Assembly (NCBI GenBank): GCA_029881255.1
Contig: JAOUMY010000002.1
Span: 248,001 to 312,000 of the forward strand
Origin: Gammaproteobacteria bacterium
GTDB lineage: Bacteria; Pseudomonadota; Gammaproteobacteria; S012-40
Reading direction: 5' to 3'
Length of the DNA stretch: 64,000 nt
The notes below the pieces were generated by a model that saw only the letters and a program-made list of their open reading frames with translations, searched no databases and was not told the DNA's origin. Both the position numbers and the translations under genes were made by a program. This document shows positions 7,587 to 9,393 of this stretch, one piece after another; positions within the stretch are counted from its first letter, which is position 1, and the number at the start of each line of letters is the position of its first letter.

Positions 7587-8033
7587 TTATGATTTGCGTT
7601 TCTTATCTGCGTTTATTTCAATCTGGCGAGTGTCGATGGCGACTTTGTCGACGACGCCGTTGATGAAGCGGTGAGATTTGTCTGCGCCGAAGCGTTTTCC
7701 AAGGTCGATGGCTTCGTTGATTACAATGCGATACGGAATGTCGATAACGTATTTGAGTTCGTAGGTAGCCAGTCGAAGTATGGCGCGTTCGATAGGACCA
7801 AGGTCATCGAGGTGGCGGGTAACATGTGGTTTGTAGAGTTCGTCGATTTCGCTGGCGTTTTGGGTGATGCCGCTGATCAAGCGTTCGAAGTATTCCATGT
7901 CGGTGTTTGAGCCGCTATGCTCTTCACGAAATTGTTTGATGATGTCACCGATATTTTGCTGCGCGATTTGCCATTGATATATTGCTTGTACTGCGGCTTG
8001 ACGTGCGCGACGGCGTGCTTGTCCGACATTCAT
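7587..8033 (-). CDS. nusB: transcription antitermination factor NusB
   Basis: NusB binds the boxA element with NusE (S10) and supports processive rRNA transcription. The 148-residue all-helical protein has the family features: the basic start VGQARRRARQAAVQAIYQWQ, the central helix YFERLISGI, GPIERAILRLATYEL, and IVINEAIDLGKRFGAD near the C-terminus. It is followed closely by thiL. Upstream, the expected ribH neighbour is displaced by almost 900 bases of palindromic repeats, so expression of nusB may depend on read-through of strong hairpins or on a promoter inside that region. Neither can be decided by eye. Confidence 0.96.
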   Translation of the reverse strand: MNVGQARRRARQAAVQAIYQWQIAQQNIGDIIKQFREEHSGSNTDMEYFERLISGITQNASEIDELYKPHVTRHLDDLGPIERAILRLATYELKYVIDIPYRIVINEAIDLGKRFGADKSHRFINGVVDKVAIDTRQIEINADKKRKS

Positions 8034-8082: not shown

Positions 8083-8244
8083 CTGTGTTGTGCAATTGTT
8101 TAGTTTGTTTTGTGCCTGGGTTCCCGTTGCTCCATGCCTGGAAAGGGCTTCTGTTTACAAAACTCGCTGTGAATACTTCCCTGTACGCTCTGCGGCCGCG
8201 TCCATGCGGCCGAAGGTTTTGTAAACAGAAGCCCTTCCCAGGCA
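8083..8244 (+). repeat. palindromic repeat unit A (leader + hairpin with 52-nt core)
   Basis: A leader of about 50 bases (8083-8134, containing TTTAGTTTGT and TGCCTGGGTTCCCG) precedes a long hairpin. Its arms, 8135-8163 and 8216-8244, pair over 29 bases with one mismatch (A/C here, a G-U wobble if the minus strand is transcribed). The loop is a 52-base core, 8164-8215, with two small internal stems: TAC/GTA around TTCCCT, and CGGCCG(C) arms around a GTCCAT-type loop. Reading outward from the core, each arm has GTTTTGTAA, then 7 copy-specific bases (ACAGAAG), then CCCTTCCC, then a copy-specific end. No coding potential is apparent. Confidence 0.9.
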
Positions 8245-8252
8245 ATACGCAA

Positions 8253-8307
8253 CTGTATTGTGCTATTGCTTAGTTTGTATTCGTGCCTAGGTTCCCGCTA
8301 CTACGAG
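8253..8307 (+). repeat. repeat unit B (leader copy without the hairpin)
   Basis: Bases 8267-8305 match 8354-8392 with one difference and also resemble 8097-8136, so this is a third copy of the leader. The GGAAGGG arm, core and second arm are absent. Instead a short CACTT/AAGTG mini-palindrome lies at about 8318-8330 before unit C begins. Confidence 0.85.
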
Positions 8308-8345
8308 TTTTTGTATTCACTTCAAGTGACTCGCCCATTCGCTGC

Positions 8346-8508
8346 TGTGTATCTGCTTAGTTTGTATTCGTGCCTAGGTTCCCGCCACTACGCGCTTGGA
8401 AAGGGATTCGATTACAAAACTCGCTGTGAATATTTCCCTGTACGCTCTGCGTCCACGTCCATGCGGCCGAAGGTTTTGTAAACGAATACCCTTCACGGCC
8501 ACTGCGCG
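8346..8508 (+). repeat. palindromic repeat unit C (leader + degenerate hairpin)
   Basis: The leader at 8354-8392 is nearly identical to unit B. The core at 8421-8472 differs from the core of unit A at 3 of 52 positions, two of which break the internal CGGCCGC stem. The left arm (8396-8420) and right arm (8473-8494) still pair but with one mismatch and one bulge near the variable segment. A further CGCGC/GCGCG pairing (8391-8395 with 8504-8508) closes the base. It looks like a decaying copy of the same element, in the same orientation as unit A. Confidence 0.85.
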
Positions 8509-8510
8509 GC

Positions 8511-8766
8511 TACTTTGTGCTAAATGTCTAGATTTGGCGTTTTCGTTTTAACCGCTTAAAACCAAGATATTCGATACACAATGTTGCGCAACAAAACTTC
8601 CTGCCACCGAAAACTAATCTCGACTCCGCGAACGAAACCAAAGTACAACCACATTCGGATTCTTACGAGTCACAAACACTTCTAGAATTAGGTTTCATAT
8701 TCATTGAACCGAAATTACAAAACCAATTCTGAATTTCTCTCCCAAACCACTACCACGATCTCTCAA
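8511..8766. other. non-coding spacer between repeat units C and D
   Basis: This A/T-rich stretch of about 256 bases has no credible reading frame. A lone TTACAAAAC at 8715-8723 equals the constant part of the repeat arms, flanked by GAAAT and ATTTC, and may be the remnant of another copy. Nothing else is recognisable. Confidence 0.5.
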
Positions 8767-8888
8767 GCACAGTGTTGGGGAAGGGTGTGGCGTTACAAAA
8801 CCTTCGGCCGCATGGACGCGGCCGCAGAGCGTACAGGGAAGTATTCACAGCGAGTTTTGTAACGCCACACCCTTCCCCAACACTGTGC
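8767..8888 (-). repeat. palindromic repeat unit D (perfect 35-bp hairpin, inverted core)
   Basis: The arms 8767-8801 and 8854-8888 are perfect 35-base inverted repeats. The loop 8802-8853 is the exact reverse complement of the 52-base core of unit A (52 of 52). The arm segments next to the core (GTTTTGTAA) and the CCCTTCCC block are shared with unit A. The 7 bases between them (CGCCACA instead of ACAGAAG) and the outer 10 bases are different, yet are perfectly matched in both arms. It lies 32 bases from the end of ribH and could fold in the ribH-nusB mRNA. Confidence 0.92.
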
Positions 8889-8919: not shown

Positions 8920-9393
8920 CTACATATTGCGAAACAAATTCACCATTTCGATCGCAGAAACTGTCGCTTCGACACCTTTGTTACCGGCCTTGGTGCCTGC
9001 ACGTTCGATCGCTTGCTCTATCGTATCCACCGTCAACACGCCGAATGCGACAGGCACATCGTCGTTGAGCGAAACGTGTGACAGACCCTTGGTCACCTCA
9101 CCCGCGACATATTCAAAGTGCGGTGTTCCGCCACGGATAACAACGCCAAGCGCGATAATCGCATGGTATTTTTTACTACGGGCCATACGCTGTGCGGCCA
9201 GGGGAATTTCAAAGGCACCGGGAACTCGGACGATTTCGATATCGCTGCGTTTGCCGCCATGACGGACGATGGTGTCGATGGCGCCTTCGAGTAGGCTTTC
9301 GCCGATATAGCTGTTGAAGCGGCTCACGACGATACCGAATTTGGTGTCTTTTGCTACGGTGAGTTCGCCTTCATATGTTTTGATGTCGTTCAT
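8920..9393 (-). CDS. ribH: 6,7-dimethyl-8-ribityllumazine synthase
   Basis: RibH condenses the pyrimidine intermediate with 3,4-dihydroxy-2-butanone 4-phosphate to give lumazine, the penultimate step of riboflavin synthesis; the enzyme forms icosahedral or pentameric shells. The 157-residue protein shows SRFNSYI near residue 24, VPGAFEIP at 57-64 and [14 protein letters not shown], with the catalytic-type His at 92. It starts 4 bases after ribBA. Its usual partner nusB should follow directly, but here the palindromic repeats intervene. Confidence 0.96.

Follow-up and report, generated by a model that had tools for sequence, protein, structure and literature searches.

The TwoAYGGAY RNA (RF01731), discovered by Weinberg and co-workers (PMC2864571), consists of two A-N-GGA-Y-looped hairpins and a long, poorly conserved closing stem that meet in a three-way junction. 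Binding of CsrA has been proposed for this family, and a tandem G·A in a stem has been noted (PMC4333381); in Rfam it belongs to the same clan, CL00106, as CsrB. The SELEX consensus of CsrA is RUACARGGAUGU, its sites are ANGGAN hexaloops, and its dimer bridges sites 10–63 nt apart (PMC7652899). As for the evolution of such structures, template switching has been reported to create and maintain RNA hairpin stems (PMC8794818), and also to homogenize arms and invert spacers (PMC8604942).

The hairpins considered here were found in a 64,000-nt stretch of a gammaproteobacterial genome (the window). Like REP/BIME elements, they are intergenic palindromes, often forming inverted pairs, but REP/BIME keep the sequence of the stem, whereas in these hairpins it is the loop that is constant and the stem that varies. 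We consider it reasonably probable, taking the account as a whole, that they represent a dispersed TwoAYGGAY-like hairpin that would bind CsrA or act as its decoy, is carried on MITE-type units, and has its arms copied in place.

Three hairpins between ribH and nusB

Hairpins A, C and D of the window are located between ribH and nusB, both encoded on the minus strand. The features, with matches to R1, a covariance model made here for the element (its E-values are rough), are as follows:

7587–8033, minus: nusB, downstream neighbor with the same direction of transcription (TIGR01951, E 1.4e-43); context only
8135–8244, minus (RNA-like strand): hairpin A, 29-bp stem with one mismatch around a 52-nt core
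8135–8163 and 8216–8244: stem arms of A
8144–8237: R1 match of A, 97.3 bits
8164–8215: loop (core) of A, 52 bases
8177–8182, minus: second loop of A, AGGGAA
8200–8205, minus: first loop of A, ATGGAC
8399–8494, minus (RNA-like strand): hairpin C, 22-bp stem with three mismatches
8399–8420 and 8473–8494: stem arms of C
8401–8494: R1 match of C, 70.3 bits
8421–8472: loop (core) of C, three bases unlike A
8434–8439, minus: second loop of C, AGGGAA
8457–8462, minus: first loop of C, ATGGAC
8767–8888, plus (RNA-like strand): hairpin D, perfect 35-bp stem around the core
8767–8801 and 8854–8888: stem arms of D
8780–8873: R1 match of D, 98.5 bits
8802–8853: loop (core) of D, reverse complement of loop A, 52 of 52 bases identical
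8812–8817, plus: first ANGGAN loop of D, ATGGAC
8835–8840, plus: second ANGGAN loop of D, AGGGAA, within GTACAGGGAAGT
8920–9393, minus: ribH (lumazine synthase), upstream neighbor (TIGR00114, E 5.5e-55); context only

The re-measured coordinates agree with the geometry given by the first-pass annotation, that is, loops of A and D identical in opposite orientation, three differences in C, and stems of 29 bp with one mismatch and of 35 bp without any. The copy-specific stem 7-mers it pointed out, ACAGAAG in A and CGCCACA in D, were found as claimed, and the 7-mer in C is ACGAATA. In 64 kb, chance would produce about 5e-17 perfect 35-bp inverted repeats with a fixed spacing, and thus a chance origin of stem D is excluded. 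The same annotation divided the stems into constant and copy-specific parts. The variable part is indeed variable and internally paired, but the arms of different copies are not unrelated: in most of 19 copies from the source genome, GTTTTGTAA adjoins the loop and positions 17–24 form a C-rich block. Overall, homology between the arms in this genome is recognizable despite divergence, with the C-rich block and the first ten positions largely retained and the rest variable.

A second repeat, TGCTTAGTTTGTATTCGTGCCTAGGTTCCCG, is present in three copies beside hairpins A and C (window positions 8096–8139, 8267–8310 and 8354–8397). Window-like clusters of three to four hairpins also occur at a related locus in two genomes (G322, C6:195190–195755; G387, C2:22534–23126), and there the palindromes are conserved far better than the intervening sequence.

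The core, its functional strand and a probable link to CsrA

On one strand the core folds into a three-way junction of a long stem, P1, and two hairpins, P2 and P3. ANGGA is invariant in both hairpin loops among 77 aligned copies, with N unrestricted and not limited to Y. The median arm length is 30 bp (147 copies from many genomes), and in the same set the pairing score of real arms has a median of 26, whereas exchanging arms from copy to copy gives a mean of 7.0. In the 77-copy alignment 96.7% of cells are paired, and two-sided changes are seen in 30 of the 35 pairs. The covariation score of this alignment was 0.696, versus 0.140 for shuffled and at most 0.133 for slid controls. The hairpin structure itself is near certain to be real.

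Mispairs in the stem are distributed unequally between the strands. With the stem read on the ATGGAC...ACAGGGA strand, 71 G·U cells stand against 14 A·C cells outside stem positions 4–8; counted as distinct events, in a slightly different stem register, the ratio is 64 to 22, with 18 genomes versus 3. As G·U outnumbers A·C there, we take this strand to be the functional one; the excess suggests that the element functions as RNA, or as a single strand, of this sense. When the strand is ignored, G·T is not enriched among mismatches (147 copies). Moreover, G·A and A·G are enriched at stem positions 5–8 over all copies, though present in a minority of them.

At the Rfam gathering cut-off (43 bits for RF01731), the window copies matched no family, and most other copies also missed RF01731. 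The best copy of the source genome scores 42.8 bits against RF01731, on the same strand and loop on loop, and one locus in a relative (G004) reaches 43.8 bits, likewise on the predicted strand and loop on loop. Low-scoring matches to h2cR and microRNA families were rejected, as any long hairpin gives such scores. The element has the two hairpins of TwoAYGGAY, its three-way junction, and its long, sequence-variable outer stem; it differs in the short P3 with a UUYAY bulge (the P3 of RF01731 has 15 bp) and in the unrestricted N of the loops. Judged by sequence and predicted fold, the window hairpins closely resemble TwoAYGGAY as a variant; since they fall below the RF01731 cut-off, we call them TwoAYGGAY-like rather than members of the family. 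The first-pass annotation had proposed a candidate for an undescribed element, and this holds only in part, as the core is TwoAYGGAY-like. No paper naming this repeat was found in the literature.

The family-consensus P3 contains GUACAGGGAUGU, which is the CsrA SELEX consensus; GTACAGGGAAGT of hairpin D matches it at 11 of 12 positions, the window copies differing at one position. The two GGA are spaced by 23 nt, inside the 10–63 nt bridging range. A csrA gene was found in the source genome, which shows compatibility with CsrA binding only. ANGGA hexaloops, short hairpins and paired sites at bridging distance are also features of CsrA/RsmA-binding RNAs such as CsrB and RsmY/Z. However, in the latter many sites are located on one RNA, whereas here one pair of sites sits on a long duplex stem and is dispersed in up to approximately 114 copies. 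On these grounds we predict, with moderate confidence, that the element binds CsrA. Once transcribed, it would expose two loops 23 nt apart to a CsrA dimer and so may provide CsrA with a small binding site or act as its decoy.

Distribution and mobility of the element

The core is present at 18 places in the source genome, nearly all of them intact hairpins with arms of their own, and several copies form oppositely oriented pairs approximately 100–350 bp apart. A pattern search retrieved at least 120 stretches with gammaproteobacterial titles, mostly metagenome-assembled genomes (MAGs), but also Microbulbifer, Methylomonas and Thiohalobacter. A search with the covariance model R1, a kind of check suggested by the first-pass annotation, covered 370 gammaproteobacterial species in 273 genera and detected the element in 81 of these species and 70 of these genera; most of the genomes are MAGs. 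The scatter of similar loops in gammaproteobacterial genomes, which that annotation had mentioned tentatively, is thus real and covers at least 70 genera. In a phylum-level draw, for which the composition is not given and no absence elsewhere is claimed, 34 of 397 genomes were positive, all of them Gammaproteobacteria. No match to the element was found in the viral, phage, plasmid and E. coli collections searched, and plasmids therefore offered no empty sites for comparison.

The structure has several local variants. In some copies P2 is longer by about 51 nt (L014:1490–1634 and L006:1744–1888, with matches of about 145 nt in three further genomes, G384, G428 and G430); this variant occurs in several genera and may represent an ancient subfamily whose apical structure is larger. 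Nested second stems of 20–33 bp lie outside the first one (L010:1430–1630, L015:1430–1640 and L015:1030–1310), and in L010 and L015 a conserved internal loop (CTGYGTCAGGYRTT / ACACCYTCCTTGCRCA) lies between the first and second stems. At L018:1473–1566 most of the core is deleted, yet the 33-bp stem is perfect, and at L004:1700–1800 a tandem array of CGAATCCA lies between two hairpins.

In a relative with 114 copies (G371), the hairpin is the center of a transposed MITE. The copies are non-coding, near-identical and about 200 bp long; they carry terminal inverted repeats, and 9-bp target duplications accompany 13 of 14 of them (0 of 5000 swapped pairs). The whole unit moves together with its stem. 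In another genome (G429) the units that contain the core have terminal repeats of two kinds, while terminal inverted repeats common to the copies of G384 are suggestive. Copy number among relatives of one family ranges from 0 to 105. In these respects, i.e., size, absence of coding capacity, terminal inverted repeats and target duplications, the G371 units are like prokaryotic MITEs. On the contrary, what is conserved in the element is its center and not its ends, and in the copies of the source genome no terminal inverted repeats, shared outer sequence or target duplications were detected. Spread as the center of a non-autonomous MITE-type transposon is shown in relatives, and for the source genome we infer it.

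Copies occur evenly in both orientations relative to flanking genes (gene calls being simple open reading frames). This gives no support to a cis role within the host mRNA, and a fixed role of that kind is unlikely. This lack of preference also suits a purely DNA element, a transposase binding or processing site of the REP/BIME kind with no RNA role, as do the dispersed intergenic positions, the frequent oppositely oriented pairs and the mobility in G371. Moreover, G·T is the better-tolerated mispair in single-stranded DNA too. The invariance of ANGGA in both loops, apart from its free N, the SELEX-like P3 and the resemblance to an RNA of the CsrA clan point instead to RNA, and MITEs that differ in their terminal repeats contain the same core. 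We treat the purely DNA element as a serious rival, but an unlikely one.

Mirrored stem changes and their implications

Each hairpin would be a copy of the dispersed TwoAYGGAY-like RNA element, and the sequence of its P1 changes freely with pairing kept. The in-place evidence comes from two orthologous loci in one species pair (G418 and G420), which differ by nine mirrored pair changes, four of them transversions, and four one-arm changes, compared to 0.5 mirrored and 13.8 single changes expected for independent arms. The flanks of these loci are 82% identical (18% diverged), and a stem pair changes approximately as often as one flanking site. Ortholog comparisons between G428/G429 and G384/G430 were too distant, and the sister pair G079/G199 too similar, to inform.

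The paralogous copies of one genome (G384, 59 copies) provide larger numbers. Among 45 distinct copies, 887 of 900 stem cells are Watson-Crick, and the minimum spanning tree implies 89 mirrored changes (55 double transversions) versus 13 one-sided ones, with a mirrored change separating 10 of the 12 one-step neighbors. This tree took in lower-scoring copies, which reduces the bias of a top-scoring sample; the top-scoring sample alone agreed. In G002, on the contrary, one-sided stem differences dominate, so that either mirroring is not universal or the copies of this genome are decaying.

Selection alone could in principle produce paired changes, if an RNA function requires the stem and compensatory changes accumulate one arm at a time via G·U or weakly deleterious mismatches. 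Strong covariation agrees with this, as does the prevalence of G·U over A·C on the RNA strand, seen in 18 of the 21 genomes that are informative. However, double transversions cannot pass through G·U, and yet they are the largest class (55 of the 102 changes inferred in G384). The preponderance of mirrored changes between one-step neighbors also argues against it, as does the rate at which pairs change, which is close to that of single flanking sites; moreover, a single mismatch in a 30-bp stem should be cheap. As stepwise G·U compensation cannot yield double transversions, copying from arm to arm is the better account, and we consider selection acting alone rather improbable.

Mirrored multi-base changes, perfect arms and spacer inversion are known from homogenization of quasipalindromes by template switching (PMC8794818; PMC8604942), but here this would concern a whole repeat family with arms of 30–55 bp and a 52-nt spacer, unlike the known cases. 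At one locus (L361), comparison with L364, L366 and L376 shows the core hairpin turned around with respect to the outer parts of its element, which is what spacer inversion predicts. We consider it likely that arm copying explains the mirrored stems: DNA-polymerase template switching within the hairpin would copy a mutation in one arm to the other arm, or erase it. The data favor selection for RNA pairing in addition, with template-switch copying working on top of it.

The first-pass annotation had offered either selection on structure or a mechanism by which one arm is rewritten from the other, such as fold-back synthesis upon each insertion. Selection is supported by the G·U excess on one strand, and arm copying, acting in place, is well supported by the mirrored changes at orthologous elements, whereas synthesis at insertion is not: copies share diverged arms and, moreover, orthologs show mirrored changes in place, so that the stems were not made from target DNA. 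At L006 (1276–1294 and 1478–1507) an arm matches 18 of 19 bases of a neighboring rmuC-like gene about 190 nt away, which may be its donor or an antisense target. Arms taken from flanking sequence as a rule were rejected, since own-flank and swapped-flank matches are alike except for L006, a real exception, and L144, where the match is a local duplication. Despite the perfect copy-specific arms of the source genome and the arm of L006, a stem obtained by each copy at insertion, through fold-back synthesis or target capture, is very improbable given homologous arms, flank matches no better than swapped ones, mirrored differences between orthologs at one locus, and units that in G371 move with their stem.

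In this family, each stem pair appears to evolve as if it were a single site. Its copies amount to a large natural data set, which allows one to test directly, in bacteria, the roles of selection and template switching in crossing the compensatory valley. It also calls for caution in covariation tests, as copying of DNA can give mirrored changes and RNA selection is then not necessarily proven. Tentatively, and as an improbable extension of our account, transposons may have seeded gammaproteobacterial genomes with dozens to more than a hundred predicted CsrA-binding hairpins, with arm copying active in the propagation of the element itself and allowing for unique perfect stems. The family also connects mobile elements with an orphan RNA for which CsrA binding has been proposed, and such a connection would offer a means of expanding or titrating the network of a global regulator.
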